Under the pieces are notes generated by a model, which saw nothing but the letters and a program-made list of their open reading frames with translations, did not search any database and was not told where the DNA came from. A stretch of 64,000 bases of DNA. Origin: Desulfovibrio psychrotolerans. GTDB lineage: Bacteria > Desulfobacterota > Desulfovibrionia > Desulfovibrionales > Desulfovibrionaceae. Location: NCBI RefSeq assembly GCF_013340305.1, contig NZ_BLVP01000001.1, forward strand, positions 1 through 64,000, given 5' to 3'. Below are positions 128 to 27,928 of the stretch, piece by piece (the first letter of the stretch is position 1; the number at the start of each line of letters is the position of its first letter). Made by a program: the position numbers and the translations under genes.

Positions 128-462
128 TTTGCAGGAGGGGCGTGGGCGCACTAACAAGGCAGCACTTGCCGTGCTTCATCTTGCAGCATCCCATTCGCTA
201 CTACCCCGATCAGACTAAGCCTCCGGCGGGGAGAGGGGGCCGCCGGCGCGCTGCCCCCTCTCCACTCCCCCCGCGCTTTTTTGCTCCTGACAGGCCTTCC
301 GCTGCCTCACGTCTCGCGCTGTCTGCCAGCCCGTTGCCTGCGCCCTTTGCACTCGGATGCGGCTTTGTTGCGCGTCTGTATGCCGTACCCTCGGCGGCAA
401 AGGGCTGCGGCGCGGAGTTTTGGTGGGATGGGCGGGGAAATTGATGAGGTGATGGTGCGTCG
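128..462. other. Intergenic stretch with one strong GC-rich hairpin
   Basis: No gene is supported here. Reading frames on both strands are compositionally biased shadows. The clear structure is an 11-bp perfect stem, 230-240 (GGAGAGGGGGC) with 253-263 (GCCCCCTCTCC), with a 12-base loop. A run of six T follows about 14 bases later on the plus strand, so it might be a second terminator for the rRNA operon or a terminator for the convergent kinase gene. Nothing else stands out. Confidence 0.5.
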
Positions 463-2379
463 TTAGAGCAGATTGCGCAGCACGGTAAGCAGTTCATCCA
501 TATCCAGAGGTTTTCTGACCACGGTGGTCATGCCTGCCTCCATGCAGGGGGCAAGTTCTTCTTTGTGCATAAAGGCCGTGAGAGCGATAACGGGGATGGC
601 GGCGTGATGTTTGCCTGCTTCTCCGTGTCTGATGGCTTTTGTTGCTTGAATGCCGTCCAGTTTAGGCATCTGCACATCCATAAGCACGGCATCGCATGGA
701 TGCTGGCGTAAACGTTGCAGTGCCTGTTCTCCATCTTCCGCAAGCAGAACCCTGAAGCCCGATTTTTCCAGCAGTCGCTTGGTGATCAGACGGTTAACGG
801 GTTCATCATCGGCAATAAGTATTGTGGCACAATGCCAGAGCTGGTCTGGAATAGGACTGGAAAGAGGTTCTGGCATGTCTGCCTGCCGGGCAGCGGGAAG
901 GTGCACGGTGACTGTGGTTCCTGCCGTTTCCGATGTGTGCATGGCGATGTTTCCGTGCAGTGTGTTGGCAATGAGTCGCGCAGAGTATGTTCCCAGACCT
1001 GTTCCATGCGTCTTGCCTGCTGTGGCGTATTTATCAAAAAAACGGGCCCGGACAGCATGCGGTACGGCCCCGTTGTTGTGAATGTCTGTGCGTACACGTC
1101 CATCGTTTCCGGAATGCAGAGATATGAGGACCGTGTCTCCCGGTTGCGACGCTTCCATGCTGTTGAGCACCAGATTGGAAAAAAGAGAGTAGCAGAGCAT
1201 GGGCTGTGCTGAGACATAGAGTTTTTCGTCCACACAGGCGTGGCGGTTATCCACATGCAGGGCTACTTCGACTTGCCGGGAGAGCATGTTCTGGGACTGG
1301 TCGGCAAGAATGTCATGGAATGTTTCTAGAAGATCCACAGGTTCAGGGGAAAACTCAAAGCGGCCCGTCTCCATTTTATGCAGATCCAGCGAAAGGCGTA
1401 TCATGTGCAGCATGCGGACGCCCGCTCGTGAGATCGTGCGCAGCATGTTTTTTTGCTCACGGGTAAGGTTGTTGTCTTTTTGGAGTAATTCCGGAATGTT
1501 GACAATGGGATTGAGCGGAGAGATGAGGTCGTGCTGGGCAATGCGCTGCACGTCTTCCTTCATCTGCTCCACCTGCTTGCGTTCAGTTATATCCCGCAGG
1601 GAGATAAGACGCGCAGGCTGGTTATTCCACTGAATCTCTGTGCTGCGGACTTCCACACATATATGGTTGCCACTTGAGGAAAAACAGAGTTCGGGCGAAC
1701 TGTTGAAATCCAGCAGGCAGGGGATGCCCACGGAATCTTCGTTGCGTCTGGCGAGAATGGCTTCCGCCGCCGGGTTAAGGAAAAGGAAGGTGTTGTCCGC
1801 AGCAAGGACAATCTGCGGATCAGGGGTGGCTGTTGCCAGACTTCTGAACCGTTTTTCCTGTTCCTGCAGTAAGCTGTTCTTTTTCGCGATCTGCCTCTGC
1901 ATGTTGGCGAGTTCGTTGTTCAGTTCCATCAGCTCCTGCAGGAAGTCGATGTTTCTGTCCGGTGATCGCGCAGCCTGCGGTTCTGTTACCGAGCGGCGTT
2001 GCGTCTCGCGCAGCATTTGGCTTTGCTCGTTGATCATCTTCATCAGGTCTTCATACAAGGGGAAGATATGCTGCGGCGACTGTACGGCGATGACGAAAAC
2101 GTGATCGATGCGCTTGATACCAAAGAGAGAGAACCTTTCGCAGCGTCCATTTTCTCTGGGCAACATCACTTGGTCGCAAAGGGAGAAGCCTGATTCTGCA
2201 GCTTCAAGCAACAGTTTGCCGAACTGTTTGCGGGCGAGGTCGTCCGGCATGGACATGGTGGAAAAAGCGCTTTCCCTGTCTGAAAAGTATCCCTTTTTGT
2301 CCAGCACAAGGGTGCAGTTGCCTCCCTGCCCGTCGCAGGCAAAGGCAAAGGCGTGCCCCTGATTGCTTTTGTTAAGCAT
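463..2379 (-). CDS. Hybrid sensor histidine kinase with C-terminal receiver, partner of the B12-binding protein
   Basis: Cytoplasmic hybrid kinase of about 638 residues with no membrane segment. The first ~110 residues are an unrecognised sensor-like region. A coiled coil (NNELANMQRQ...) and one PAS domain follow, then a dimerisation/phosphoacceptor region with H-box QHDLISPLNPI, an ATPase domain (N-box NLVLNSMEAS, G-box GTGLGTYSARLI), and a receiver domain at the C-terminus (acidic pair DDE, phosphoacceptor Asp in VLMDVQMP, conserved Lys in VRKPLD). The H-box has HD where most kinases have HE. The ATG at 2379 overlaps the stop of the upstream cobalamin-binding gene by 8 bases, which suggests translational coupling. 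Longer in-frame starts up to 2460 would overlap that gene by 89 bases and are unlikely. It is the probable output of the module at 2372-3544; the signal itself is inferred. Confidence 0.88.
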   Translation of the reverse strand: MLNKSNQGHAFAFACDGQGGNCTLVLDKKGYFSDRESAFSTMSMPDDLARKQFGKLLLEAAESGFSLCDQVMLPRENGRCERFSLFGIKRIDHVFVIAVQSPQHIFPLYEDLMKMINEQSQMLRETQRRSVTEPQAARSPDRNIDFLQELMELNNELANMQRQIAKKNSLLQEQEKRFRSLATATPDPQIVLAADNTFLFLNPAAEAILARRNEDSVGIPCLLDFNSSPELCFSSSGNHICVEVRSTEIQWNNQPARLISLRDITERKQVEQMKEDVQRIAQHDLISPLNPIVNIPELLQKDNNLTREQKNMLRTISRAGVRMLHMIRLSLDLHKMETGRFEFSPEPVDLLETFHDILADQSQNMLSRQVEVALHVDNRHACVDEKLYVSAQPMLCYSLFSNLVLNSMEASQPGDTVLISLHSGNDGRVRTDIHNNGAVPHAVRARFFDKYATAGKTHGTGLGTYSARLIANTLHGNIAMHTSETAGTTVTVHLPAARQADMPEPLSSPIPDQLWHCATILIADDEPVNRLITKRLLEKSGFRVLLAEDGEQALQRLRQHPCDAVLMDVQMPKLDGIQATKAIRHGEAGKHHAAIPVIALTAFMHKEELAPCMEAGMTTVVRKPLDMDELLTVLRNLL

Positions 2380-3064
2380 GTGCGGTTTTTCCGATTCCGA
2401 GAAGCGCGCCTGCCGTTGCCACGGCTTGTGGGGCATTGCGGGCGGTGCCGTCCGCACCAACGACGCGCCAGAGGTTCGGGTTTACCATAAAGGCAAGTCC
2501 GCCAGCCATGACTTTGGGGGCGCGGTCTTTCATCCGCTGCCGCAGCGCGTGAACAACATCGCGCACCTGAGGCATACCGGTGAACATGGTGGCTGAAAGG
2601 CAGACGAGGTCCGGTTCGCGGGAGGCAATGGCGCGCACGATGTCGTCGCCGGGGGTTACGGCACCGGTGAAGTAAGTGTCCCAGCCGGAAAATTCGAAAA
2701 AGTCGCATACCATACGCATGCCCATTTCGTGGAGTTCGCTCCCCAGGCAGCAGCCGATCATGCTTAGCCCGTTGCGGGGCTGCACCAGCGCATAGGGGAA
2801 GAGTTGGGCCATGAGGAGTTGTGTAGCGGCGGTGCAGTAGTGTTCCGTGGTAATATCAATTTCATTATTCTGCCACATGCTGCCAACCGTATACATGGCG
2901 GGCTGGATGACGCGCAGATAGGCGGCAGAAATGGGAAATCCGGCCTCCACCTCCTGCAAGACAGCGGCGCAGGCGGTTCTTCTGCGTGCTTCAAGGAGGT
3001 GCTCCAGATAGATTTCTTTGAGCCCGGACGCCCGTTGCTGTTGCTCTTGGGTGAGATGTTCCAC
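2372..3064 (-). CDS. Free-standing CarH-like cobalamin-binding protein
   Basis: A 230-residue soluble protein consisting only of a B12-binding unit. Residues ~15-95 form the four-helix cap with W64 and E74-H75, matching the W...EH signature of CarH/MerR-type photosensors and methionine-synthase-like caps. Residues ~100-228 form the Rossmann-like domain: E110-L-H112-E-M-G115 matches ExHxxG, whose His is the lower axial cobalt ligand, with Ser157 and Gly188-Gly189 as further expected cofactor contacts. There is no DNA-binding, methyltransferase or mutase domain. Translation likely starts at GTG 3064, with GGAGAA six bases upstream overlapping the preceding gene's stop. It sits between a small helical protein and a hybrid kinase in one tight operon, so a sensory role is more likely than a corrinoid methyl-carrier role, although MtaC-like proteins share the fold. 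Confidence 0.88.
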   Translation of the reverse strand: MEHLTQEQQQRASGLKEIYLEHLLEARRRTACAAVLQEVEAGFPISAAYLRVIQPAMYTVGSMWQNNEIDITTEHYCTAATQLLMAQLFPYALVQPRNGLSMIGCCLGSELHEMGMRMVCDFFEFSGWDTYFTGAVTPGDDIVRAIASREPDLVCLSATMFTGMPQVRDVVHALRQRMKDRAPKVMAGGLAFMVNPNLWRVVGADGTARNAPQAVATAGALLGIGKTAHA

Positions 3065-3067
3065 TGC

Positions 3068-3544
3068 TTATTCTCCCGGCACTGTGCCCAGCGACTCGAA
3101 GAACGACGGGGTTTTTTCGCTCAGCTCGGCGAAGTGGTGCATGTGGTCTATGAGCCATTGGTATATGGGTAAAACTTCAGCCGCGTGCTCCGGGGGCAGA
3201 TCTTCGCGGAGTATCTGCATGGCTTGCGGGAGCATCCGGTCCCAGTAGGCGAGGCGAAAACCTTGAGCGCGGTAGGTGCGGAGCACCCAGACGACAGCCT
3301 CCACCAAGGAAACCGGGTCGAATACGGAGGCAAGGGAGGCCATGTACCGGAAGTGGTTCAGGTGATTGGAGCGCGCCAGATTCTCGTTGCCCGGGCCGAT
3401 CAGTTCGGCGAAATCCGGCATAGCCGTCATCGCCGCGTTCAGTGCTGCCGCATGATGATCTGCCCTGTCTGTCAGAGTCAGTGCAACGGATTCCGAAACG
3501 GACGGAAGACTCGTTGCGGAAAGGATAAGTTGTGATTTCTCCAT
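3068..3544 (-). CDS. Small helical protein linked to the cobalamin sensor
   Basis: A 158-residue, probably all-helical cytoplasmic protein. The central part (NHFRYMASLASVFDPVSLVEAVVWVLRTYRA and what follows) resembles the N-terminal helical segment that precedes the B12-binding domain in some longer cobalamin-binding regulators. I recall that similarity from family patterns and could not test it. If correct, this operon encodes as separate chains what is elsewhere one polypeptide. ATG 3544 is preferred over TTG 3562 because GGAGAGAGGAG precedes it at good spacing. The stop is 3 bases from the GTG of the cobalamin-binding gene. Function unknown; a partner or adaptor between cobalamin protein and kinase is an inference. 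Confidence 0.7.
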   Translation of the reverse strand: MEKSQLILSATSLPSVSESVALTLTDRADHHAAALNAAMTAMPDFAELIGPGNENLARSNHLNHFRYMASLASVFDPVSLVEAVVWVLRTYRAQGFRLAYWDRMLPQAMQILREDLPPEHAAEVLPIYQWLIDHMHHFAELSEKTPSFFESLGTVPGE

Positions 3545-3657
3545 GGCTCCTCTCTCCCCCAATGCCTGCGGAAGACTGAACTGTCATAGGCGTTGCGCAG
3601 CACATTGCTGAACAGGATTCTCTGTGTCTTCGCCTGCTACCTGATACTGCTTAGGGT

Positions 3658-6600
3658 CTAATCTACGAGTCGGTGCATGAGCTCGACCAGTTGCTCCGTT
3701 TCAAACGGTTTTGCGATGTAGCTGTTCATGCCCGCTTCAATGAACGTGTCCTTGTCGCCCGCCATGGCGTAGGCTGTCATGGCAATTATGGCGATTTCTG
3801 CGGCACGCTTTCCTGCTTCTCCCGCGCGGATGGCCCGCGTGGTTTCAAGCCCGTCCATGTAGGGCATCTGTATGTCCATGAGCACAACATCAAACGTGTC
3901 TTTTTGCAATTCTCTCAGCACTTCCAGTCCGTTAACCGCCAGCGTTACTGTAAATCCTGCCCGCTCAAGCTGCCGTTGGGCGGAAAGGCGGCTTACGGCA
4001 TCATCTTCCGCGAGGAGTATCCGCATGGAGCGGGGCTGCGGCATGGGCAGAGCGCATGTGTCCTCGCGCGTGCCGCACTCACACTGGGTGAATGTGCAGC
4101 AGAAAAGGACCGTTGTGCCTTCTCCCGGCTCACTTTCCATGTAGATGTCGCCTCCCATGAGTGCGACCAGATGCTTGCAAATGGAAAGCCCCAATCCGGC
4201 TCCCTGATACTGTTTGTTATACCCGTTTGTTACCTGTGTGAAGGGTTGGAAGAGTGTGTCGATCTTTTCCCGGGGCACGCCGATGCCGGTATCCGTTATG
4301 GCAAAGAAGACACGGACTGTTCCCGTATTGCCGGAAGGCAGCGGGTGAACCTCCACCAGAATCCGGCCCGCCGTGGTGAATTTGAAAGCGTTGCCGACGA
4401 GGTTGTTCAGAACCTGCAGCAGGCGGATGGGATCACCGACGAGCATGGACGGGATGGCAGGAGAAACGTGTGTTTCCAGAATGACACCGGATTTGATGAC
4501 ACTGGGGCGGAACAGGTCACCCACGTGATCCATGATTTCCCTAAGGGTGAAGGGTTGCTGTTGAATGGTCAGTTTGCCCGCCTCCACCCGGGAGAGATCC
4601 AGAATATCTGTAAGCAGGTGGGTGAGCCGCTTGCACGCCTGCAGTGCGATTTCGGCATACTCTCTCTGCTCCGCGTTCGCCGCGCCATCCAGCACCAGTT
4701 GGAGCATGCCGTGGATGCCATTAAGCGGGGTACGCACCTCGTGGCTCATGTTGGCAAGGAATTCGCTTTTGGACTTGCTGGCCTTTTCGGCGTTCAGCCG
4801 GGCCAGTTCCAGATCTGCCAAAGCCTGCTTACGCTCGCTGATGTCATAGCAGTAGCCTATGTAGCCCATGAATGCACCGTCCAGCCCCTGAATGGGGCAG
4901 CCGAAGTCTACAATCCAGCGGAATTCGCCGTCATGTCTGCGCAGGCGGTATTCCATTTCAAAGGGAGCGTGCCTGGCAAAGGCTTCGGTGTAGGTGGTGA
5001 GGCAGTGTTGCATGTCGTCCGGGTGCACGCCGTCTGCCCAGCCGTTGCCCATTTCCTGTTCCATGGACCTGCCGGTAAAATCTAGCCAGGTGGCATTGAA
5101 CCAGTTGCACAGGCCGTCCTGACCGGCGCGCCAGATGAGGGCCGGGGCTTTGTTCAGTATTGAGAGATAGAACTCCGCCGCTTTGGCAAGGTTGGCCTCG
5201 GCCAGTTTGCGTGGCGTGATGTCTATGGAGACCCCGTTCCATATGGTGGTGCCGTCTGATATTCTGACAGAGGTGCCGCGCGTGTGCAGCCATACGCAGC
5301 CGTTGTCTGTCTGGCAGCGGTGCTCAAACTCCATGGTGGTTCCGTTTTTCAGTGCGGCGGCCAATGCTTCCCGGAAGACGTGAAGGTCATCTGCATGCAC
5401 GAGAGCGGCCATGGAGGTTGCCGCGCTGAGCATGCGGGTGGTCTGCTGCCCAAGCATGGCCCGGGCATAGTCGCTGACGAAAGTGTAGCCTCCTTCGGCA
5501 TCCGGGGGCTGTTGGAACTGGAAGACAAGTCCGGGAACGCTGGAGGCGAGGGCCTTGATGAAATCCAGTTGCCTGCGTTCCTCTTCGGCAATCTTCACGC
5601 TGGTAATGTCCAGGAAGGTGAGCACCACACCGTTGGTGTTTCCCTCGCTGTCCTTGAAAGGGAGAACCCGTCTGAGCAGCCAGTTGCCTTCTGCATCTCT
5701 TATCTCTTCTTCTGCGGAATCGCCTGATTGCAGCACCTCTTCAAGCGATCTTAGCATATGCTCGCGGCCCGGATGCTGGTAGGCAATGTGATCTACCGGT
5801 CTGCCTATGTCATGCGGCAGAAGGCGGAAGGAGCGCATGATGGCGGGGTTGAATTTTCGTATACACAGGGCAGCGTCCAGAAACAGGGTGCCCACCTCAG
5901 TGCTGCGGAGCAGGTTATCCAGATCGTCGTTAAGTTCTTTCAGTTCCCTGTTTTTCTTTTCGAATTCCGCGTTTACCGTGAAGAGTTCCTCGTTTACCGA
6001 GTGCAGTTCTTCATTGGTGCTTTGCAGCTCCTCGTTAGCGGCGAGCAGTTCTTCGTTCGTGCTCTGTAATTCTTCGTTGGTGGTTTGCAGTTCTTCTATG
6101 GTTGCCTGAAGATTCTCTCTTGTGGTCTGCAGGTCGCCCTCCAGTTCCGATACGCGTTGCCATGCCGCTTCGCTGTCGGTGTAGAGGCTGCCGTCTGCGG
6201 CTGCAGCGGCTTTTTTATCCACTGCGGGATGGCCGGGTTGGCTGGCGGAAAACGACACATGGAAGTGCTGCTGGCCAGGTCTGTCGTCGTGCAGGCTTTC
6301 TACCGTGAGGTCCATGCTTTCTGTTTTGCTGCCCAGCGCAACTTTGATGTTGCTGAAGACTATCTTGCGTTCTTCTTGAGCGGCCCGATGCAGGGCGGCT
6401 CCCAGAGCGAGCTTGAGGTCGCCTTCGGTCATATCGAGAATATCGCGATCCATGCGGCCTGACATGCGAACCAGATAGCGGGAAGCATCACCGAAAATGT
6501 GTATGATTTCTCTATTCTCATTCACGATGATTCCCGGGGGAAGATGCCGTTCCAGCAGCAGGTCGTAGTCGCGCAGAAGGCTGCGGTCCAGCGTGGCCAT

Positions 6601-8211
6601 GGCGCGCATGGGAGCCACGAGCCTGCGGGGTTTGTCCGCCGGATTTACCCGCATATCAATATTCAGTTTGACGTCCCTGTTTTTCCTGTAGAGCTTGGCC
6701 TTGGCGTCTATGGTATCGAACTCCGGAGCCAGAGCCCCCGGCGTTTCGCTGGAGCCGAGGAACAGGACGCCCCCTACCCGCAGCGCAAAATGGAACATGG
6801 AAATGGCCTTTTCCTGCGCAATGGGCATGAGGTAGATGAGCATGTTGCGGCAGGTGACGAGATCCATTTTGGTGAAAGGCGGATCGCTGATGACGTTGTG
6901 CGGTGCAAAGACTACCATGCCGCGCAGTTCAGAACTGACACGGAACGAGTTATCTGATTCCTGCCTGAAAAAGCGCTGCATGCGGTTGCGGGAGACCACT
7001 TCCAGCCGGTTTGCCTCGTAGATGCCTGCAGAGGCTATGTCCAGAGATTCACGGTGCACGTCTGTAGCGAAAATAGTGATTTTTCCTGAAAAGTTACGCC
7101 GCTCTGCCTCTTCTGTGAGAAGGATGGCGAGGGAGTATACCTCCTCGCCGGTGGCGCAGCCGGCAACCCAGCAGCGGATGTCTTTCTGGTCCGGCTGTTC
7201 CGCGGCCCGTTCGAACAGGGCCGGGATGACCTGCTGCTCAAGCCGTTCAAAGGACTCTTTATCACGAAAGAAACTGGTCACGCCGATGAGAAGATCTTTA
7301 TACAGCGCGTTCAGTTCTTCTGCATTCTCCCGGATGTAGGTGAGATAGGCGGAAAGAGACGGAATCTGGCTGAGGGCCATGCGCCGTTCCAGGCGGCGGC
7401 CTACGGTGGTGGGTTTGTAGTAAGCGAAGTCTATGCCGTAGTGCTTTTTCAGCAGGGCCAGTGCCGCATCTCCTTCATCTTCATCAATACCGCATTTGCT
7501 TGAATGGACGGTTTTTTCGCCCAACGAGTTCGGGTCTGCGACGTGTTTGAGAAGAGATTCCGGCATTTCTTCCGGTGAGAGCACAAGGTTAACCGTGCCG
7601 CTTTCCAGAGCGCTACGCGGCATGCCGTCGAATTTTGCTGTTTCCGGTGCCTGAACCAGTACCAGCCCCCCCGCACGGCGGATGGAGGCAATGCCGCGAG
7701 AACCGTCGGTACCCGTACCGGAAAGGATAATGCCTATGGCGCGTTTTCCTGCATCCTCCGCAAGGGAATGGAAAAAAATATCTATGGGCATTTCCAGCGA
7801 GCGGGTGGTGTCGCGGTCGGTGAGGTAGAGGTGCCCGTTGCGGACGGTCATCGCCTTTTTGGCCGGGATGAGATAGATATTTCCGCCAAGGATTTTCATG
7901 CCATCATCTACTCGGTGGATGGGCATGGAGGTCTGGCGGGCGAGAATTTCGTCCATGAGGCTTTTAAAATCAGGCGACAGGTGCTGAATGACAACAAATG
8001 CCATCCTGCTGTCTACAGGCGCGTTGTTGAAGAAATGCTCAAGTGCTTCCAACCCCCCGGCAGAAGCACCTATGCCTGCGATGTATAGCTCATTATCCGC
8101 TGGATCGGCAGCGCCCTCATTGCTCTTGAGCGTATTTATACCGGAAGTCTGCGTATTGGGTTGTGCATTGTTGTATAGGTTTTTGTCGTCTCTATTTACA
8201 TTGTCCTGCAT
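3658..8211 (-). CDS. CheB-CheR-PAS-histidine kinase-receiver fusion protein
   Basis: A 1517-residue soluble signalling protein. The CheB methylesterase-like domain (~42-225) has the catalytic triad positions Ser50 (GASAGG), His77 (IQHLSP) and Asp169 (GTGTDG). A CheR methyltransferase domain (~245-505) has the SAM motif [13 protein letters not shown] at ~348. After an atypical linker comes a heptad coiled coil with repeated [10 protein letters not shown]-type units (~680-760), three PAS/PAC regions (~770-1140), HisKA (H in [15 protein letters not shown]), an ATPase domain ([12 protein letters not shown]) and a C-terminal receiver with Asp ~1446 (VLMDIQMP). Its stop lies 113 bases upstream of the small gene at 3544, so one transcript with the B12 module is possible. 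CheBR-kinase fusions are a known class; there is no CheB receiver at the N-terminus. Confidence 0.92.
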
Positions 8212-8613: not shown

Positions 8614-9108
8614 GGGTTCTTCACGGAATTCCGGGAAAGGCTGCCCTGATTTTCAGGAAGAAATACTCGTCATCTCGGAACCCGTAGGCCATTCTTTTTA
8701 TCACTTTGATTTTGTTGTTGATACCTTCCAGAAGGCTTGTGTGCAGCCGATGGCGACAGTGGGCCAGCAATCCCGGAAGATATGGGCGAAGTCTCCGGGC
8801 AAATATGCGTAACGGCTCAATCTTGCTCCGCATAGCTCTGCGATACCACCCTTGCCAAAATCGCAAGGCGGCCTTGGGATAGCGGTACTGCCATAACCGT
8901 TTCAGATCATCTTTGAGTACGTAAACCACCATCAAGTTCCGATCGGCTTGCAGTAGTTCGTCCAGCCGTACCCGGTCATCCGTGCGGAGGATGTTTTCCT
9001 TGTTCTTCAGCAACAACCAGCGCGAGCCTTTGATGACTTTTCGAGCTTTATTGTCGTGAGCCACACGTTTGGCCTCATGAAACAATCAAACCGATGACCG
9101 TAACATGA
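8614..9108 (-). pseudogene. ISL3-family transposase remnant, C-terminal third
   Basis: Frame 8621-9085 encodes ~154 residues typical of the C-terminal part of ISL3 (IS204/IS1001/IS1165) transposases: a GSRWLLLKN motif, WYRRAMRS, and the terminal region with the catalytic Glu in HTSLLEGINNKIKVIKRMAYGF. The N-terminal zinc finger and most of the catalytic core are missing. Upstream of 9085 the expected D-x-FH motif can be read only after a one-base shift (GHRFDCF in one frame, FHEAKR in the next), so the similarity extends to about 9108 with a frameshift. Just beyond the stop, GGGTTCTTCACGGAA at about 8614 looks like an element terminal repeat. No partner repeat was found, so this is a dead fragment. 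Confidence 0.8.
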
Positions 9109-10560: not shown

Positions 10561-11931
10561 CTAGCCGATGGGTTGTCTGGCAAAGGTGATGTATTCAAGG
10601 TTACGGATGTTCCAGTCCAGTATCCAGTATGCGGCTAACAGCGCCGTGAAACAGGAATAGCAGTAACCGTATCCGTAGAAAGCGACGTCCATGCGGGTCG
10701 AAAGCCAACTGAAGATGCCGTTGGTGACTAGAAACAGGGCGGATACGATGAGAACATCCCTTCGCAGATCAAAGTAAAACAATATGATGATAACAACAGA
10801 GAGCAGGACCTGCAAGAAGGCACCCACAAGGGCCACGCGGTAGATAGGGATCTGGATGGGGGTCATTTGGGCAAGGGCAATGATCTCCGGCGCAAAGGCG
10901 ATGCACAGGCAGGTTATGGCCCCCTGGATGATGAGTATTTCACGTAGGGAAGCGTGCAGCGATTCCACAAGCCTGTCTTTTTCTTCCAGAATGGTTCCTA
11001 GCGGCAGGTTGTCCATGATCTTGGCGTAGTACAATCTGTAATGGTCGTAGAAAGATGTTTCCACCTTCATCAAAAAGATGGCCAGCGTGGGCACGATGGT
11101 GAGGTAAGCAAAGAATATGGGACCTTCGTAAAAATCATGCGTCCGGAAGTGGGGAACGATTGTTCTAGCGTCCGGAGCCAGCCAGAATACAATTTTGTCT
11201 ATCCATATTGCCAGATTGTATATCACGCCGACCAGCGCCAGTTCCCAGTACTTGCGGAAATAGGTGAAGAGGCGCGCATCCCAGATGGAGCTGGTGGGAA
11301 ATTCAGCGATAAGGCGTGCCACAAGCCAGAAGAAGATCACCGCCTGCCCGGCGAGGTAGCCCAGCATGTGGCCTTCAGCTCCGAGGTTCCGGCTGAGCAG
11401 CAGGGCCCCGCCAATGCTGATGAAGGTACCTGCGGCAAAGGCGATGACAATGTGAATGTAGTCCTTCACTGCGGAGATGAAGATCATGGCCAGCCAGATG
11501 AGGCAAACCACGATGAAAAGCATGACCGCGAGCAATGTGTATATGGCCGATATCTCGAACTGCCAGTAAGCAAAGGCTGCAAGGGGCGTACCTGTGACAA
11601 GCACAACGGCGGATGTGGTCCAGAAGGCGCGCATGGAGGATTCCAGATTGCCCAAATAGAATTCGTCCGCAAGATAACGGGTGGCCACAAGCTGGAAAAA
11701 GCCCACGTACACCAGTGAGAACGCGTAGGTGTAGATAATGGTGGATCGGAAAATCTCGTGGTCAATGTTGGAGAGGGTCCGCTCCCTGAACAGCCCGAGC
11801 ACGGAGAGCGTGAAAATGCTCATGAGCCACGGGCCTGAGGATATGAGTGCGGCGTACAGATAGGCCCCAAGCTCGTCCAGATAGGAGCCCTTGCCCAGAA
11901 TGCGGCGCAGTTCAAATCCTATACCTGCCAT
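10561..11931 (-). CDS. pelG: PelG, inner-membrane component of Pel polysaccharide export
   Basis: A 456-residue polytopic membrane protein with about 12 hydrophobic segments and the family N-terminus MAGIGFELRRIL. PelG is a MATE/flippase-like protein thought to move the Pel polymer across the inner membrane together with PelD, PelE and PelF. ATG 11931 has GAGGAGG upstream and overlaps the pelF stop by 13 bases, consistent with operon translation. It is the last intact pel gene; an epimerase remnant follows. Length matches the family. Confidence 0.93.
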   Translation of the reverse strand: MAGIGFELRRILGKGSYLDELGAYLYAALISSGPWLMSIFTLSVLGLFRERTLSNIDHEIFRSTIIYTYAFSLVYVGFFQLVATRYLADEFYLGNLESSMRAFWTTSAVVLVTGTPLAAFAYWQFEISAIYTLLAVMLFIVVCLIWLAMIFISAVKDYIHIVIAFAAGTFISIGGALLLSRNLGAEGHMLGYLAGQAVIFFWLVARLIAEFPTSSIWDARLFTYFRKYWELALVGVIYNLAIWIDKIVFWLAPDARTIVPHFRTHDFYEGPIFFAYLTIVPTLAIFLMKVETSFYDHYRLYYAKIMDNLPLGTILEEKDRLVESLHASLREILIIQGAITCLCIAFAPEIIALAQMTPIQIPIYRVALVGAFLQVLLSVVIIILFYFDLRRDVLIVSALFLVTNGIFSWLSTRMDVAFYGYGYCYSCFTALLAAYWILDWNIRNLEYITFARQPIG

Positions 11932-13463
11932 GTGCCCTCCTCGTCGTCATCGTGATCGGTGCCTCCCGGCCCGTGCCACTGAGGCATTTCCATCAGCTCC
12001 TTATACAGGGCGTCGTAGCGCGCGTTCAGCGATGCCTCACTGTAATAACGGGCGATGCGCTCCCTGCCCGCGCGGGTCATGCGTTTGCGCAAGGGGTAGT
12101 TGGTGAGGATGCCGAGCATTCCGGCGGCTGTGTCCGCCGGGTTTGCAACGCGCGTGATCACGCCGGAAGGTCCGAGTGCCTTGTCTTCCGGCAGGCGGCC
12201 CTCCAGCAGTTCGCGGCATGCTCCCACATCGGAGGCTACAACGGGAATGCCGGCGCAGTTTGCTTCCATGACCACCAGCGGCTGCGCCTCGCTTATGGAG
12301 GTGAGCACCACCATGTCCAGCTTGGGATAGTATTCGCGTACGTTGATGCGACCGAGGAACAATATTTTGTCTTGCATTTGCAGTATCTTGACCAGGTCAA
12401 TGCACTCTTCGTAATACTCCTCGTCTTCTTCCGTGGGGCCCATGATCCAGAACTGCACGTTGGCAAACTTGAGCGAAACGGCTTTGCATGCGCGGATGAA
12501 GGTCTTCACATCTTTGATAGGTACGACGCGGCCCACAAATCCGACGATGAAGCTGTCCTGCTCCTCTGGAGGATAGTCTGCAGGCTTCAGGTTCTGGAAT
12601 CCTTCCAGATCGATGCCGTTGGGTATGACCTCGGTGCGCCATTGGTCGGCCCCGTCCTTGATTTGCATCTGGCGGTTACCTTCGTACAGGGTGACAATAC
12701 GTTCCGCATAGCGGTAGGTGATGCGCCCGAGCGTATAAAATAACCTGACCCAGAGCTGCTGGTACAGGCCCAGATCCTTGCTTATACGCATGCGGTCTTC
12801 ATCGTTCTGCTGTAGAGCCTCGGACTGGGCGATTTCTATCTTGCGCTCCTTTGTGTAGATGCCGTGCTCGGTCAGCAGGAGCGGGCGTCCGGTGCGGATG
12901 CGTGCCACGGTGCCGATAAGGCCCGCATAGCCGGTGGAGATGGCATGGTAGGCTTTGGCTTCCGGCAGGCGCACACCCATGGCTTTGAACATAGGCAGGT
13001 GCGTGAACCGGAACGTCCAGAAATAGTTCATGAACGGGGCATCGGGCACGCGTTCCTGTATCTGCTCAATAAGCAGGTCCCATGCGGGTTTGCCGTGCAT
13101 AAGGTCCCACAGAGGATAGCGGCCCTGCCGGAAGGCATCTATCATAGTAACGAGGTCGTTATGGGACAATGATGCCAGCCCCTTGTGAAAGGCGCGAATT
13201 TCCTCAACATGCCTGCTGCTGAAGCGGCGGAACAGGGAGCGGCGGGGCTTGTCCACATCGTGGATATAGAGCACCTCCGGAGGGATGAAGTTGGGAGGCA
13301 ACTCGTATTTATAGGGATGCGGTTCCCGCGCTGAGGGCAGAATACACACCGCTGTGAAGGTGAGGTGCGGCAACCCCTTAATGATATTGTGAACCCATGA
13401 GGACACCCCTCCCGCCACAAAGGGGTATGATCCCTCCAGTATCAGGCAGATGTCTGCGCTCAT
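11919..13463 (-). CDS. pelF: PelF, cytosolic GT4 glycosyltransferase for Pel synthesis
   Basis: About 514 residues. The N-terminus ADICLILEGSYPFVAGGVSSWVHNI is the GT4 donor-fold start typical of PelF. The C-terminal half has the GT4 signature GFVGRVVPIKDVKTFI and the EX7E-type region with SISEAQPLVVMEANCAGIPVVASDVG. PelF is the UDP-dependent transferase that polymerises the Pel aminosugar backbone. The ATG at 13463 forms an ATGA overlap with the pelE stop; an upstream in-frame start at 13487 lies inside pelE and is rejected. Confidence 0.94.
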   Translation of the reverse strand: MSADICLILEGSYPFVAGGVSSWVHNIIKGLPHLTFTAVCILPSAREPHPYKYELPPNFIPPEVLYIHDVDKPRRSLFRRFSSRHVEEIRAFHKGLASLSHNDLVTMIDAFRQGRYPLWDLMHGKPAWDLLIEQIQERVPDAPFMNYFWTFRFTHLPMFKAMGVRLPEAKAYHAISTGYAGLIGTVARIRTGRPLLLTEHGIYTKERKIEIAQSEALQQNDEDRMRISKDLGLYQQLWVRLFYTLGRITYRYAERIVTLYEGNRQMQIKDGADQWRTEVIPNGIDLEGFQNLKPADYPPEEQDSFIVGFVGRVVPIKDVKTFIRACKAVSLKFANVQFWIMGPTEEDEEYYEECIDLVKILQMQDKILFLGRINVREYYPKLDMVVLTSISEAQPLVVMEANCAGIPVVASDVGACRELLEGRLPEDKALGPSGVITRVANPADTAAGMLGILTNYPLRKRMTRAGRERIARYYSEASLNARYDALYKELMEMPQWHGPGGTDHDDDEEGTWQV

Positions 13464-14599
13464 GCCGTTGCCCCCGGCATGTCGCATGCCCTGGTTCGTG
13501 CTTGCAGGGCGTGCGGGGCTGTGGTCCCATCCGTGGTGTGTTGAGCCCAGAACACATACAGTGCGCGGCTGAACTCGTCCGCTTCGTCCGCTTCTGGCAT
13601 GGCAGAGCGCATTATCGCCATCTCGCGGGAAAGGCGAACCCAGTCGCGTTGCTCGAAAAAGGCCCAGCAGCGTCCAAGCCTGCCTGCCAGACGGGTATCG
13701 GGGTAGTCCAGTGCTGTGGTGAACATGCGCAGGGCCGACTCGTAGTCCTTGAGTTCAAGGCTGACATGACCAAGCTCCACACAAGCCATATGGTCTCGCC
13801 GCTCAATGGACATGTAGCGCAGATACTGCTTGCGTGATTCCGCAAGGTAATAGGAGCGCATGGTGTCTTCCGGCAGGCCGCTGCGCGCGTATTCCCGGCA
13901 GGCTTCAGCAAAGGCCCGCACCAGTGCGGCATCGCCCGATGCGGCAAGCTCTTCGGCCTTATCCAACCGCTCCACGGCATCCTCCTCCAGTTGTGTCAGG
14001 GCCGTGTGGGCGAAAAAGCGCACCTCGGCGGAGGCATCGGATAAGCTCTCCTTCAGCAGTGTGACGGCGCGCGGGCTTTTCATGCGTTTCAGCAGCATGA
14101 TGGCACCGCGTTTCAGGTCGTCGTCCGAGCCGAGTAGGATGTCCACAATGGGTTGAGTGGCCAGTTCTTCGCGCAGCATGTCGTCCATGGTGCGTGTGAT
14201 GGTGCCAGCATCCAAATGGGTGAGGTGCATTTTTTCCTGTTCGAATTCGTGCGCAAGGCCCTTGGGGCGGATGAGGAGCTTGGTCAGGTTCACGGTCAGG
14301 AACATGCCGGAAATGCCCACTACGGGCAGGAACAGGGTGATAAGGCCGGTAAGCTTGGGCAGGTACCAGCCCGCTGAGGGAAACCGCGCGGGGCGGTAGC
14401 GGTAGAGCAGCGGTACGGCGGCGGCCAACAGGTGCAGCGCGGTTGCCTGCAGCCATTGCTGCTGCCCAGCGGGGCGGGGCGGGGATAACAGCAGGTACAG
14501 GCCGCCCGCTTCCAGCAGCAGGGAGGCGGCGAACATGCACTGCAGATAGATGACCGCCTTGAGATGCGGTGCGACCCTACGCGGAGGTGACTGTGTCAT
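13460..14599 (-). CDS. pelE: PelE, membrane-anchored TPR/HEAT-like Pel protein
   Basis: A 379-residue protein with several N-terminal hydrophobic segments (residues ~15-35, 45-62, 82-105) and a long cytosolic helical region (DDLKRGAIMLLKRMKSPRAVTLLKESL..., then TPR-like helices). In characterised loci PelE links PelD to the PelF/PelG machinery at the inner membrane. ATG 14599 has GGAGG upstream and overlaps pelD by 23 bases; the stop overlaps pelF as ATGA. Identification rests on architecture and position more than on sequence motifs. Confidence 0.85.
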   Translation of the reverse strand: MTQSPPRRVAPHLKAVIYLQCMFAASLLLEAGGLYLLLSPPRPAGQQQWLQATALHLLAAAVPLLYRYRPARFPSAGWYLPKLTGLITLFLPVVGISGMFLTVNLTKLLIRPKGLAHEFEQEKMHLTHLDAGTITRTMDDMLREELATQPIVDILLGSDDDLKRGAIMLLKRMKSPRAVTLLKESLSDASAEVRFFAHTALTQLEEDAVERLDKAEELAASGDAALVRAFAEACREYARSGLPEDTMRSYYLAESRKQYLRYMSIERRDHMACVELGHVSLELKDYESALRMFTTALDYPDTRLAGRLGRCWAFFEQRDWVRLSREMAIMRSAMPEADEADEFSRALYVFWAQHTTDGTTAPHALQARTRACDMPGATA

Positions 14600-15986
14600 G
14601 GATATCCTCCGTCATGGCGGCGAGCAGTTCCTCCATGTCGTTCATCTCGGGCGTGAGCGCGGCTACTCCTACATGCAGCGACATGAGGTGGGCATCCAGT
14701 TCAAAGCTCATGATCACAAGGGCCTGATATGCGCGGGCAATGTTGTTCACCACCACGCGCGCGCCCTGCATGGGGGTGGTGGGCAGCAGTATTACAAATG
14801 CGCCTGGGGTTTCGTGCAGAAAGACAAGGTCTATGTTGCGCAGGTGTGACTGGATGACCGAGGCAAAGGCGATGCGCGTGGCTTGCTGTTCTTCGGGCAG
14901 GCGTTCCTGAAAACCGGGAATCTCCAGATAGATGACAGAAAGTTCTAGGCCGTAGCGTTTGGCGCGGGCGAACTCCTCTCCCAGCCTGCGGCGCAGGTAC
15001 CGCGCATTGTACACGTCCGCAATATCATCGGTGATGAGTTTCTCGCGAGTGTTTTTATGCAGCAGGGCGTTTTCAAGGCTGGAGCCGCACCAGTCGGAAA
15101 TGAGCTCCACCATGCGGATGGAGGTGGGGTTGAATTTGAGAAAGGGCATGCGTTCCACAACCAGCACGCCCATGGCTTCCATGCCGCTGGAGGTGAGCAC
15201 TGGGGCCGCAATGAGTATACCCGTGGTCTGCTGTTCCCTGCGAAGGGCGGCATCCAGCGTGTGTGTCCGCCGTTCACGGTATACGGACCAGAGCGGTTCC
15301 GATTCCAGCGCGATGGTGGCGCGTGGCTTGGGCGAGACGGTTCGTTTGAAGGCCTTGAGCTGAAAGACGTTGTTCTCCAGCATGTAGATGGAGCATTCCT
15401 CCACGCCAAGATACTGACGCAGCAGGTCCAGTATGGCCATGTAGATGGATTCCGAATCCAGCGTGCGCAGGGCTTGCGCTGCCTCGTAGATGGTGGAGAG
15501 GGTATGCTCCTGCGAGAAGATGCGAGTATCCATCTCCACCTTGGCCTGTTCCAGTGCCCGCAGTTCCTTTTGCTGGGTCTCGCAAACGGTCATGTTGTCC
15601 CGCAGCTTGGTAAGCGTGGCAGTGTGTTCTCTAATATGTCCCTGACGGATTTCTCCAAGAGCCATGCCGGTGGTCCAGAACAGCAGGGGGGTGCCCCACA
15701 GTTCCATGGAGCGCAGCTCCAGCAGTGAGATGTCCGGAATGGTGGCGGCTCGGAAGAGAAGGAACAGCAGACCGGAACTCAACCCCGCAAGGAATCCCGG
15801 CAAGAAACCGTAGCGGACGGAGATGAGCAGCACCACGATCCAGTAGGGATGCGGCTGCACGTTCAGGAATCCCACATCGTTGCGGAACAGCAGCATGTTG
15901 AGCACGGTGATGAGCATGAGGCCGAGGATGATCTCCACGAGAAAGGTCAGCCTGCCCTTGCTGGGATTGAGACGAGTGACTGCCAT
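14577..15986 (-). CDS. pelD: PelD, c-di-GMP receptor of the Pel machinery
   Basis: 469 residues. Four N-terminal membrane segments (~13-125), a coiled-coil linker, a GAF domain (~165-325) and a degenerate GGDEF domain (~330-465). Instead of an active-site GGDEF there is only a relic, but an I-site-like RxxD is kept at residues 383-386 (R-N-I-D). In the known PelD this motif binds c-di-GMP and switches on polymer synthesis, so post-translational c-di-GMP control is expected. ATG 15986 has AGGA upstream and starts 6 bases after the preceding stop. No active cyclase is visible nearby. Confidence 0.93.
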   Translation of the reverse strand: MAVTRLNPSKGRLTFLVEIILGLMLITVLNMLLFRNDVGFLNVQPHPYWIVVLLISVRYGFLPGFLAGLSSGLLFLLFRAATIPDISLLELRSMELWGTPLLFWTTGMALGEIRQGHIREHTATLTKLRDNMTVCETQQKELRALEQAKVEMDTRIFSQEHTLSTIYEAAQALRTLDSESIYMAILDLLRQYLGVEECSIYMLENNVFQLKAFKRTVSPKPRATIALESEPLWSVYRERRTHTLDAALRREQQTTGILIAAPVLTSSGMEAMGVLVVERMPFLKFNPTSIRMVELISDWCGSSLENALLHKNTREKLITDDIADVYNARYLRRRLGEEFARAKRYGLELSVIYLEIPGFQERLPEEQQATRIAFASVIQSHLRNIDLVFLHETPGAFVILLPTTPMQGARVVVNNIARAYQALVIMSFELDAHLMSLHVGVAALTPEMNDMEELLAAMTEDIHDTVTSA

Positions 15987-15992
15987 GCTTTC

Positions 15993-18155
15993 CTAGAAAT
16001 GGTAGATGATGGACGTGGTGAAGGCCTTGGATTCGCCGCCTCCGGGCTGTCCCGTGTCATTGTTGTATTCCGCGCCGATATCAAGATCCAGCCGCTGGCC
16101 GAGGCGCAGCCGTACCCCGCCCCCCGTGCCCAGCAGGGGAGAGAGGCGGAACACATCGTACCCGGCGGAACCGAATGTCCTGAGCGCGATGTACTCGTTG
16201 TACCAGTGCAGCATCTCCACACGCAGGGTGTGGATGTCTTCCTTGTCCACAAGGTCCACGGGTCTTTCACCCGGATTGTTCTGGCGGTAGTTCATGCGCG
16301 TGCGCGTGAAGATGTAGCTGGCAGTCACGTCCGGCATGAAGTGCAGTCGGCGGGTGAGTGCCAACTCCTCACGCTCCTGCCACGCGTAGCCGGAAAGCCC
16401 CTCCAGCGAGTAGCGCTGCGCCCCTGCGGACGCCGCAAGGTACCAGTTGTCGGTGAGCGGTTTTTCCAAGGTCAGGGTGAAGGTGTCTGTTGTGCCGTCG
16501 CGGTTAGCGGCATCCAGTGTGGTGTACCATGGCGCCTCAAGTTGCGTATTCAGGCGTACCAGACCGCTGACGTTGAGCCGGTGCTCCAAGGAAAGGCTGG
16601 GGGCAACGCCTTCGCCGACACCTTCATAATACTGGATGCCCGCACCGAGCAGCCAGCGGCGGCTGGGCTCATAGGTAACGCCCGCCTCATGCAGACGCAG
16701 TTCGCGGGCAATGCTTGCGGTGCCGTCTTCATCGCTGCGCCTGTCCAGACGGCTGCGGGTATGAGCGACATGCGCCCGCCACATCGAGGACAGTTGCTGG
16801 CTGTAGTCCACCGTGAACGTGTTTATGGAAACATCGCCCGCCTGTACTTCCGAACGATAGTCCGCAGCAAGTTGCGGCCCGCGTTCTCGCAGAATGGTCT
16901 GTATGTTTTCCGCCGCGTTTTCATCGTCAGGGTTGGCATCGTACACGGCGCTGAAAAGGCGAAGTGCTTCCTCCCAGTCTCCGGCGTTACGCCGTGCATA
17001 GGCGTAGTCCATGATCGCCCAGGTGTCCTCCGGCGCGTGCTCCATGAGCTGTTCCAGCCATGGAAAGCTGGCCTCGTAGTTGCCAGTTTCCTCTGCCATG
17101 GTAAGATGCAGGCGTGCCGTCTGCCGGATCGCGCTGATGCTGTGCGGCATTGCGGCGCGCCATGCCACCAGTTCCGCATCCGCTTCGGCCCAGCGCCTGC
17201 CATCCATTAGCGTTTCGGTGTACCCTTCCAGAATGGTTTCGTCCTGGCCGTGACGCAGCAGCAACTGGCGGTACACCTCGCGAGCTCCCTCAAGGTCGCC
17301 CTGCCGGTAGAGGCTGCGGGCAAGGATGATTTCGGCTTGCTTTGTATCCAAGGTGAAGGGGGTGGCTGCCTCTGCCTCGGGCGTCTTTCCGGTGCTTTCC
17401 TCCGTAATACCCAGCGGGGAGCGTTCATCGGGATTCCGGCGAAGCGGGACTTCAGCGAGTGCGGGGGTGCCGTTTCCGACATTACTTGCAGGCCGGGGAA
17501 GGGCCATTTGCGGGGAGAGTGTCATTGCGGATTTTACCATGCGTTCCGGCGCAGGGGCGATGTCGGTGTTCGTGACCAATGTATCGGGATGGGTGATGTC
17601 AGTTACCGCGTCCGACCCTGAAGCTGGGGAGGAAATCGTGCCGGGGGCCGGTTCGGATGCTGTAGCGATGTCCGCAGCGTCCGCTGTGGCAGCTGGCGTG
17701 GCGGGGTCGGTGTCCGGGGCGACAGGGGGGAGGATCAGCTCGCTGTTGCGCAGCCCCTCTCCGGAAACGCGCCGCGTGGCGTGCAGAGCCGCATCCATGC
17801 TGCGGATGAGGCACCGGGTGCCCGTTTCGGCCGTGAAGGTGTCTGCAATCCGCCGGGCATCTTCCCTGTTGTCCGTGTGGGCAATTTCCACCACATACCA
17901 CAGGGTCCCGGCATCATCGAACAGCATTAGCATACCCGCATCAGGCATGCCCGCTGCGTGGAGTCGCCGCACGGCATCTACGGCACCGGTGGCCTTGCGC
18001 GACGAACTGGCGCGCACGGACCAGAGCGTGGTGGCCTCTGCCCGGACCGCGTTCGGGGTTTCTTCCGCCACGGAATGCAGCGGAGCCCCCACCCCCTGCA
18101 GGGTGGCGGTCAGGATGAGAAGAAGTATGGCGATGCGGCGTGTCATTTGTGTCAT
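15993..18155 (-). CDS. pelB: PelB-like outer-membrane porin (C-terminal half of PelB) with SPOR-like and TPR regions
   Basis: 720 residues. A signal peptide (RRIAILLLILTATLQGVG) is followed by a SPOR-like segment (~45-125, TLWSVRASSSRK ... WYVVEIAHTDNREDARRIA), a low-complexity Ala/Thr/Pro linker, a few TPR helices (~255-400) and a C-terminal beta-barrel of about 300 residues ending in aromatic F after alternating strands, as expected for BAM substrates. In Pseudomonas one PelB chain carries both TPR scaffold and porin; here the porin half is a separate gene 42 bases after the TPR gene. The SPOR-like part is not in the classical PelB and suggests peptidoglycan anchoring. The GT at the start codon region lacks a strong ribosome site. 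Confidence 0.8.
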   Translation of the reverse strand: MTQMTRRIAILLLILTATLQGVGAPLHSVAEETPNAVRAEATTLWSVRASSSRKATGAVDAVRRLHAAGMPDAGMLMLFDDAGTLWYVVEIAHTDNREDARRIADTFTAETGTRCLIRSMDAALHATRRVSGEGLRNSELILPPVAPDTDPATPAATADAADIATASEPAPGTISSPASGSDAVTDITHPDTLVTNTDIAPAPERMVKSAMTLSPQMALPRPASNVGNGTPALAEVPLRRNPDERSPLGITEESTGKTPEAEAATPFTLDTKQAEIILARSLYRQGDLEGAREVYRQLLLRHGQDETILEGYTETLMDGRRWAEADAELVAWRAAMPHSISAIRQTARLHLTMAEETGNYEASFPWLEQLMEHAPEDTWAIMDYAYARRNAGDWEEALRLFSAVYDANPDDENAAENIQTILRERGPQLAADYRSEVQAGDVSINTFTVDYSQQLSSMWRAHVAHTRSRLDRRSDEDGTASIARELRLHEAGVTYEPSRRWLLGAGIQYYEGVGEGVAPSLSLEHRLNVSGLVRLNTQLEAPWYTTLDAANRDGTTDTFTLTLEKPLTDNWYLAASAGAQRYSLEGLSGYAWQEREELALTRRLHFMPDVTASYIFTRTRMNYRQNNPGERPVDLVDKEDIHTLRVEMLHWYNEYIALRTFGSAGYDVFRLSPLLGTGGGVRLRLGQRLDLDIGAEYNNDTGQPGGGESKAFTTSIIYHF

Positions 18156-18197
18156 ACGTGGCGTGCGGTTGGTGCAAGTTTGAAAACGGTCTTCCTA

Positions 18198-26704: not shown

Positions 26705-27928
26705 TTAGCAAGAACCCTTCAAAACTCCTGTCCAAACCTCTGCCTTCTCTTCCAAACTTCCTTCAAGCACCTTGGCCTTCCGCCTCAGCCCCTCGGGGGC
26801 GAGGTGGCTATACCGCGTGGTCATCTTGAAGTCAGCATGCCCCATGAGCTCTTTTACGCTGTAGAGGTCCACCCCCTTTTGTACCAGCCAGCTCGCATAG
26901 GTGTGCCGCAAGGTATGAAAGCAAACACGCTGTCGGGAGTCAGCAACGCCTTCATTAAATAAATCGTCTGCAGTGCGGGAATACGCCTTTGAAATGCGAT
27001 CAACCTTACCACCGGTGCGACTGGTGAATATCAAGCCGCTTCGCTGTCCAGAATGGCGATTTCGCAGCACCTTTGTTATTTCACTGGTCAAGAATACATA
27101 ACGGTTTTGCGAGGTCTTCGTATCCCGGATCAAAATACGTCCGTCAGGGAAGTCAATATCTTGCCATTCCAATGAAGCAATCTCGCCAAAGCGCATCCCG
27201 GAAAACAATGAAATTACAGCCATGTCGTGAGATGTTGGAGAACGCTCAGCCAACACTTTCAGCAAGAGCATGGCTTCAGCAGGCGTCAAGAAGCGCTGCC
27301 GTTGGTTGTCTTTCTGGGGAAGCTTAACTTGAAGACCGGGGAAAGGCGCAGAAACGTACCCATCACGTAGAGCCAAGCCCCACACTTGCGAAACCACCCC
27401 CATGGCGTACTTGATTGTCTTAGGGGATTTACCAGCCCTAATCATCTCCTGCTTTACTTTTTCCAGATGAAACGGGACCAGCTTGAGCAAAGAAATCTCT
27501 GCCAACTGCGGTGCAATCCAGAGTTTCCATAGAGATGCTTCCGTTGCCCGGGAACGAGCACTCTTCTCGCCTTGCAGAGGAAGGTAGCAATCAGTCCAGA
27601 ATTCCTGAAACGTTGTGGCGTCACGCTCAGCCTGCTGTTTGGCCACCTCTCTTTCCTTTGCTTCAGCTGCAGCAACTTCCCGCTGCTCAGCAACCGTCCG
27701 TAAGCCTTTACCTGTCCTGTGCGCTTCCTTAAGGTCATGAAGGATCTTCGACGCTTTGAGAGGGGTCATGTTTTGGGATGTCCACCCAAGCCCCTCCCAT
27801 TTCTTTTTTCCATCAAGTCTATAAGTGATTTCAATATATAAATCAGCACGAATTCCGTGCTTGCGTGTCGGGTGTGGTGTGCCATACACACCGGGGTAGT
27901 CCGTACGCTCTCTTTTGGACTTACTCAT
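26705..27928 (-). CDS. Tyrosine recombinase / integrase
   Basis: 407 residues. An N-terminal arm-binding domain (~1-75) is followed by a charged coiled coil (EQREVAAAEAKEREVAKQQAERD), a core-binding SAM-like domain (~105-205) and a catalytic domain with Arg in FSGMRFGEI, H338-T-L-R341-H, His364 (LMGH) and nucleophile Tyr373 (TTRYSHL). All catalytic residues are present, so it may be functional. The gene starts about 60 bases from an att-like repeat and 220 bases from a tRNA-Pro 3' half, the usual arrangement for tRNA-targeting islands. The local DNA is AT-richer than its neighbours, consistent with transfer. Confidence 0.93.
   Translation of the reverse strand: MSKSKRERTDYPGVYGTPHPTRKHGIRADLYIEITYRLDGKKKWEGLGWTSQNMTPLKASKILHDLKEAHRTGKGLRTVAEQREVAAAEAKEREVAKQQAERDATTFQEFWTDCYLPLQGEKSARSRATEASLWKLWIAPQLAEISLLKLVPFHLEKVKQEMIRAGKSPKTIKYAMGVVSQVWGLALRDGYVSAPFPGLQVKLPQKDNQRQRFLTPAEAMLLLKVLAERSPTSHDMAVISLFSGMRFGEIASLEWQDIDFPDGRILIRDTKTSQNRYVFLTSEITKVLRNRHSGQRSGLIFTSRTGGKVDRISKAYSRTADDLFNEGVADSRQRVCFHTLRHTYASWLVQKGVDLYSVKELMGHADFKMTTRYSHLAPEGLRRKAKVLEGSLEEKAEVWTGVLKGSC

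Follow-up and report, generated by a model that had tools for sequence, protein, structure and literature searches.

According to PMC10979010, two photocobilins, SasPcob and AbDPcob, have been characterized, one of them fused to a cyclase and the other stand-alone, with a function that the authors call less clear. In CarH and the photocobilins, that text describes adenosylcobalamin (AdoCbl) held with a His as lower ligand and its adenosyl group on a Trp; light cleaves the Co-C bond, and the dimer changes. The light state of SasPcob is water- or hydroxide-ligated and not bis-His, AbDPcob has a biliverdin occupancy of only about 20% and its cyclase is light-activated with AdoCbl, and, by protein contact, a photocobilin that stands alone can influence another enzyme. 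A further arrangement is known from the BBAG-2 clusters, where the globin and B12-binding genes are separate (PMC10151467). Here we consider a 64,000-nucleotide stretch of Desulfovibrio psychrotolerans (contig NZ_BLVP01000001.1, positions 1 to 64,000; the window), in which three minus-strand genes encode a separate globin (P0001), a cobalamin-binding protein (P0002), and a hybrid histidine kinase (P0003). Our reading, to which we give a probability of roughly 0.7, is that this operon is a B12-based sensor with its kinase, that is, a two-chain photocobilin-like unit read by P0003. The fused photocobilin and the separate globin and B12 genes are already known; what appears to be new is the variant with a family of PAS hybrid kinases. 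The original prediction, made from the sequence, was aware of no described counterpart to this exact gene set; uniqueness is an overstatement in view of BBAG-2 and of the fused globin-B12 proteins, usually with a kinase next, in 54 of 80 named relatives (the 80 examined out of 401 related stretches in one scan). No paper on a B12-globin-PAS kinase family was found in the literature covered; the likeliest place, the photoglobin paper of Schneider 2022, lies outside that coverage and may list such kinases.

The likeness to the photocobilins lies in the pairing of a CarH-type cobalamin domain (W-EH, E/DxH) with a photoglobin domain, in the alignment of W86 of P0001 with Trp296 of SasPcob, and in the Gln that follows the motif Trp in both P0002 and SasPcob. 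The differences are several: one chain there and two in the window; a C-terminal globin in SasPcob, whereas here the globin gene comes before the B12 gene; the biliverdin-contacting Asp270 of SasPcob, which aligns with Asn in P0001 (N60, codon 3365-3367; by our own count the numbering of the SasPcob paper is 6 above the chain numbering for both residues); a fused GGDEF domain there and a neighboring PAS hybrid kinase gene here; and, in the window genome, no match to the heme oxygenase family PF01126. The BBAG-2 clusters (PMC10151467) likewise have B12-binding and globin genes that are separate and side by side, but they carry an RGMC motif (P0001 has RAQGF at the place taken as equivalent and contains no Cys), a PcyA-like reductase where the third gene of the window is a kinase, and a heme oxygenase in the cluster or genome. 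With phycobiliproteins such as allophycocyanin, P0001 shares the globin fold and a family-profile match, yet it has no CXRD cysteine or Asp and sits in a signaling operon. CarH shares with P0002 the B12 domains and the W/E/H pocket motif; unlike CarH, P0002 has no MerR-type DNA-binding domain (Pfam gave B12-binding_2 and B12-binding only), and photocobilins match it better. The Gln already mentioned, Q65, stands at the place of what we take to be His132 of CarH.

The cobalamin protein and its candidate kinase partner

Both Pfam domains of P0002, the helical cap B12-binding_2 (E 2.7e-10) and the Rossmann domain B12-binding (E 4.2e-19), are clear, and the residues G61-x-x-W64, E74-H75, and E110-L-H112-E-x-G115 stand where the original prediction had placed its CarH-type motif in a free-standing protein. 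Among solved structures, the best matches are those of SasPcob (8j2x/8j2w, E 2e-20), followed by 8jbs (2.5e-17), 1y80 (3.2e-10), the photocobilin 8j2y (5.3e-10), 4jgi (7.7e-9), the methylamine corrinoid protein 3ezx (9.8e-6), 7xcn (6.2e-5), and CarH 5c8a (7e-5). This ranking puts photocobilin closest to P0002, with CarH not the next in line. The model search proposed at the outset did return scores, but none over a cut-off: 41.4 bits of 400 for the NCBIfam CarH model NF052513 and at best 46 of 370 for the MtgC, MtbC, and MtaC models. These last scores, together with the matches to 1y80 (presumably of methyl-transfer type) and 3ezx, could suggest that P0002 is one more corrinoid protein of methyl transfer, paired with a kinase only incidentally. 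We regard this as highly improbable, since the model scores are far below cut-off, the motif set is missing from the other corrinoid domains compared, and the kinase neighbor is conserved, as described below. A methyltransferase partner for P0002 was rejected on the same grounds, and homologs found always beside methyltransferases, a concern raised in the original prediction, were not seen.

W64, E74, H75, and H112 occur together in all 80 named relatives versus none of 17 other corrinoid domains, taken from genomes related to that of the window; one of these domains is gapped at three of the motif columns. E74 and H75 were partly selected, since one of the two scan patterns held an [EG]H pair; W64 and H112 were not. 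On these counts, the motif of the P0002 family is more than chance, and the retention of W, E, and H is the pattern of light-responsive B12 domains given in PMC11796333, three of whose four light-signature motifs (GxxW, EH, and GxxxP) are present in P0002. Two relatives depart in detail: a fused globin-B12 protein from the same genus (L031 8050-9192) has Gly for Glu in the W-EH motif, and the B12 protein of L036 has an N-terminal extension to which the P0001 search gave no match.

In P0003, HATPase_c (54 bits) and Response_reg (96.4 bits) score over the Pfam cut-off, with HisKA (25.6 of 26.9) and PAS_8 (20.8 of 21.8) just under. The order is an N-terminal domain that we call P3N (about residues 1-178), a second PAS domain, HisKA with H283, HATPase_c with GTGLG at 459, and a receiver with D568; with all three landmarks present, P0003 is, as its sequence reads, a hybrid histidine kinase. 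The first 180 residues are modeled as a PAS fold with a coiled coil (pLDDT 85.4), and Foldseek on that model returns PAS domains (E down to 3.8e-4); by sequence, P3N has no convincing solved relative (best E 0.022).

The pairing of this kinase with the cobalamin gene is conserved. In 65 of the 80 named loci, the B12 gene is followed on the same strand, at no more than 1,500 bases, by P3N, and in 72 by P3N or a kinase core. The rule of our script finds neither in 8; of these, L122 does have a P3N, whose open frame begins too far upstream, and the L108 sequence stops just past the B12 gene. Across 348 genomes of the class, all 21 P3N matches (E 1e-8 or better) have a same-strand B12 match at a distance of 8 to 104 bases, which bears out the predicted kinase partner, although the A4 profile was made from kinases beside B12 genes (60 of 65 kinase stretches, omitting L112, L097, L104, L137, and L103) and limited candidates were scored per genome, so that others may escape. 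Among the B12 matches, a P3N accompanies 21 of the 22 over 250 bits versus none of the 21 weaker ones; the latter make up a group of their own, with other kinases as neighbors in L038 and L041. By comparison, a listed B12 match is found no more than 2 kb away for 24 of the 33 globin matches in the class but not for the other 9 (although one of these, L158, does have a B12 domain in the same chain); thus the three parts do not always come together, and the B12 gene is linked more tightly to the kinase than to the globin. In the window the receiver is fused to the kinase; L064 and L176 encode it on its own, in a gene behind that of the kinase, which is a further sign of one pathway. The rows of our globin tree carry 20 phylum labels, and by our count 16 labels have a P3N locus, Lokiarchaeota included; most rows are metagenome-assembled genomes (MAGs), and single labels may be wrong. 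Named isolates among the carriers of the B12-kinase pair include Desulfoferrobacter suflitae (L074) and Rhodohalobacter sulfatireducens (L130).

As a two-chain photocobilin-like unit, the module would work as follows. P0001 and P0002 would pack as the two photocobilin domains do, but as two chains, and P0002 would hold AdoCbl with H112 as lower ligand and W64, E74, and H75 around the adenosyl group. Breakage of the Co-C bond, most likely by light, or alternatively loss or gain of AdoCbl, would change the assembly of P0002, and the N-terminal PAS/coiled-coil part of P0003 would read that change. The relay would then run from H283 to D568 and on to a further regulator, with the direction of kinase control being our assumption. 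The ligand of P0001 would be a bilin from outside, none, or another tetrapyrrole.

The separate globin and its pocket

P0001 matched no family in Pfam or NCBIfam, and neither P0001 alone nor a 9-row profile (A1) found a significant solved relative. Homology does link it to fused globin-B12 proteins, over their N-terminal half (L031, same genus, E 1e-31; also L040, L037, and L012), and the deeper 67-row photoglobin profile A3 reached the globin domain of SasPcob (8j2x/8j2w) at E 1e-10 and allophycocyanins from 1.3e-10. A3 holds the window globin and 66 of 71 globin stretches, with L112, L114, L097, L119, and the second L100 stretch omitted as near-copies, short, or extra. Identity between P0001 and the A3 rows beyond its own clade is about 8-23%, so that the link to bilin globins runs through the profile. 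The AlphaFold2 model is a predicted globin (pLDDT 95.4, pTM 0.87) that resembles smURFP (Z 14.3, rmsd 2.5, 123 aligned), 8j2x (Z 11.8, rmsd 2.9, 118 aligned), and phycobiliproteins (Z about 11-13.6), with the proviso that Z below about 13 in helical proteins can mean a common arrangement; Foldseek on the model gave nothing under E 0.001. Heme globin-coupled sensors tie with the bilin proteins on this model (4zvb, Z 14.0), and hence it is the sequence profile and not the fold that groups P0001 with bilin globins. On that grouping, P0001 is a photoglobin, the bilin-carrying globin type of photocobilin sensors; the small helical protein first described is helical indeed, but the right comparison is photocobilin rather than CarH. 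The one match to P0001 among plasmid records (27% over 53%) is from Ilyobacter polytropus, under the name cobalamin-dependent protein.

With an iterated profile (inclusion E 1e-3), a globin domain was found in 70 of the 80 named loci: N-terminal to the B12 protein in the 54 fused loci, separate in 10 (L064, L070, L072, L094, L096, L097, L107, L115, L116, and L119), and inside proteins of 424-504 residues in 6. Of the 10 genomes searched from the window's genus, just two have the globin: the window genome in split form and G009 in fused form.

The pocket sets P0001 and its closer relatives apart. A3 column 60 has D in 58 rows, N in 5, G in 3, and H in 1, and W86 is invariant in all 67. In the class loci (30, window included, which takes in 30 of the 33 globin matches), N60 is found in 28, H64 in 28, W86 in 30, and Y91 in 29. 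The N60 set forms one side of a branch in a 96-row tree (34 rows, support 95/89, 94% of bootstrap trees, the bootstrap not being settled), a side that also takes in the two class loci with T or Y instead and two pairs of rows that are nearly the same. By tree path, the globin nearest to P0001 is L160 (G275) at 1.45, with L162 and L064 practically tied at 1.46. According to PMC10979010, the photocobilin AbPcob has His at the Asp270 position, so that the bilin-contacting Asp is not a strict photocobilin feature. Two N60-type globins, L057 8848-9336 and L058 8673-9143, lie far from the B12-kinase pair of the same genome or on another contig.

The same residues raise another possibility, namely, that the globin of the N60 clade binds heme or some other closed tetrapyrrole, making the module a B12 plus gas or redox sensor. 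In a weak phmmer alignment with neuroglobin (E 0.55), H64 falls on what we take to be the distal His and Y91 on the presumed proximal His, both positions are kept in nearly all of the class loci, and the tie between heme sensors and smURFP on the P0001 model points the same way. However, P0001 has no proximal His, H64 is common in the wider family too (43 of 67 rows), and the top solved relatives by profile are photocobilin and phycobiliproteins, not heme globins; we consider heme binding quite unlikely.

Bilin supply, light, and the corrinoid state

The window genome (G000, 99.86% complete) has no match to PF01126 and none to DUF2470, which we take to be HugZ-type. In the class, PF01126 is found in 11 of 348 genomes and in 5 of the 32 that bear the globin: G036, whose globin match is a broken fragment; G061, where the gene is a heme oxygenase-globin fusion; G065; G110, where it precedes a gene for a phytochrome-like protein (a reading from the protein start); and G275, where it lies about 570 bases downstream, on the same strand, of a globin-B12-kinase-receiver set (L176). 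Among the named bearers, 7 of 47 searched genomes have it and in 40 it was not found, in a search that submitted 50 of the 80 loci, some sharing genomes, and for which genome completeness is not stated. Heme oxygenase-globin fusions account for the 6 loci with long globin proteins, all over the PF01126 cut-off. In relatives, then, heme oxygenase is fused to the globin or lies downstream of it, which ties the globin to bilins; the fusion enzyme possibly passes bilin to its own globin domain, and a bilin is plausible for the N60 clade as well. The notion that Asn60 is a simple mark of bilin loss in genomes without the enzyme is weakened, both by the detection of the enzyme in only 7 of the 47 searched bearer genomes, most of which have Asp globins, and by the position of the nearest N60 globin by path, upstream of a heme oxygenase (L176).

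The fusions themselves (L065 4808-6322, L082 266-1552, L090 5649-6941, L124 5659-6948, L128 4496-5770, and L129 2785-4080) adjoin the B12 gene or lie within about 1.2 kb of it, in hosts from Geobacteraceae, Desulfuromonadales, and one Desulfovibrionaceae MAG. Heme cleavage of the HutW/ChuW type was rejected as a bilin source: the best match in the window's own genome reached 206.9 of 400 bits (L061 1426-2613), in an ORF that from its HVPFCRSKCGYC start we take to be a HemW/HemN-like radical SAM protein, and is not taken as evidence. The ABM domain PF03992, to which IsdG-type heme oxygenases belong, has one match in the window genome, but 11 of 14 control genomes have it as well, and a bilin-making enzyme of that type is neither shown nor excluded there.

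Several of these observations weigh against a light-sensing photocobilin-like unit. The window genome lacks both heme oxygenase matches, and where SasPcob holds the pyrroles with an Asp, P0001 has N60. The fourth light-signature motif, GxxH, is absent from P0002, which has S109 in place of the Gly, and 1y80 and 3ezx outscore CarH, though behind SasPcob. To these must be added the 9 class globins away from B12 matches and the origin of the A4 profile. Finally, light may be scarce for many bearers, whose record names point to many anaerobes and to MAGs from sediment or the subsurface, together with Adhaeribacter, Rufibacter, and Paenibacillus, which we take to be aerobes.

A real but minority possibility is that the module senses the AdoCbl or corrinoid state and not light, in which case apo and holo P0002 would differ in their contact with the kinase and the globin would be a chromophore-free adaptor. 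The many anaerobe and subsurface names fit this view, as do the absence of PF01126 matches from the 40 bearer genomes and the window genome and the low biliverdin occupancy of AbDPcob, with its cyclase light-activated with AdoCbl. Yet W, E, and H are kept in all 80 relatives (E and H partly selected) in the light-responsive pattern, W86 is invariant in A3 beyond the need of an idle adaptor, the bearers include the three presumed aerobes, and AdoCbl is photolabile by nature. A more specific proposal is tentative and, taken jointly, doubtful: that the photoglobin clade (N60, mostly H64 and Y91; Desulfovibrionales and SAR324; mostly genomes with no detectable PF01126) has swapped biliverdin for another tetrapyrrole and forms a two-cofactor sensor with the CarH-type B12 protein, for an anaerobe-working B12-kinase family spanning at least 16 phylum labels, archaea included.

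Gene layout, neighborhood, and outlook

The three genes are packed as tightly as was first claimed (Table 1). With the starts chosen, 3 bases separate the globin stop from the B12 gene, and a stop codon separates the two ORFs; the 8 bases shared by the B12 and kinase genes, with ATG chosen as kinase start, may couple their translation. The open frames of P0001 and P0003 begin upstream of their ATGs, at TTG 3562 and TTG 2460. The interval 2372-3544 of the original prediction takes in the globin and B12 genes and leaves out the kinase. A scan of 300-3900 for sigma-70-like promoters found none versus 1.7 expected. At 28839-29342, the window also carries a gene for cobalamin adenosyltransferase.

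Table 1. Positions of the three genes and their main features in the window
Feature	Position	Strand	Basis
P0001, photoglobin-like protein, separate chain, 158 aa from ATG	3068..3544	minus	ORF call
P0002, CarH/photocobilin-type cobalamin-binding protein, 230 aa, GTG start	2372..3064	minus	Pfam, solved-structure matches, motif
P0002 W64 codon	2873-2875	minus	
P0002 E74-H75 codons	2840-2845	minus	
P0002 H112 codon	2729-2731	minus	
P0003, hybrid histidine kinase, 638 aa from ATG	463..2379	minus	Pfam, motif residues
P3N, predicted PAS fold and long coiled coil, N-terminal part of P0003	1840..2379	minus	Model, neighborhood in relatives
8-base overlap, B12 gene end and chosen kinase start	2372..2379	minus	ORF coordinates

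Directly upstream of the module, after a 113-base gap, lies a gene for a 1,517-residue CheB-CheR-PAS-kinase-receiver protein (3658-8211); it was rejected as a conserved member, with CheB/CheR matches in 1 of the 80 loci (L124). Farther upstream on the same strand is a Pel-type exopolysaccharide gene set (10561-23173) with PelG over cut-off, a glycosyltransferase with DUF3492, a GAF-GGDEF protein, TPR proteins, and an ORF (21053-23173) that matched no family; the Pel names other than PelG are our assumption. Between the Pel side and the kinase genes, an ORF at 8621-9085 holds only the end of an ISL3-family transposase domain (PF01610 104-240 of 240), and a tyrosine-recombinase integrase (PF00589) lies at 26705-27928. 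No tRNA genes were found within the window. That light or B12 controls biofilm formation through the Pel-type set is speculation.

The P3N-type kinase is a candidate natural partner for photocobilin-like B12 proteins, and one that can be recognized by its conserved PAS domain, so that the targets of B12 sensors of this type, bacterial and archaeal, become directly testable. A second question raised by the locus is what ligand a bilin-type globin carries in cells without visible bilin synthesis. The split form of the sensor would also offer a tool in two parts, each of which can be titrated independently.

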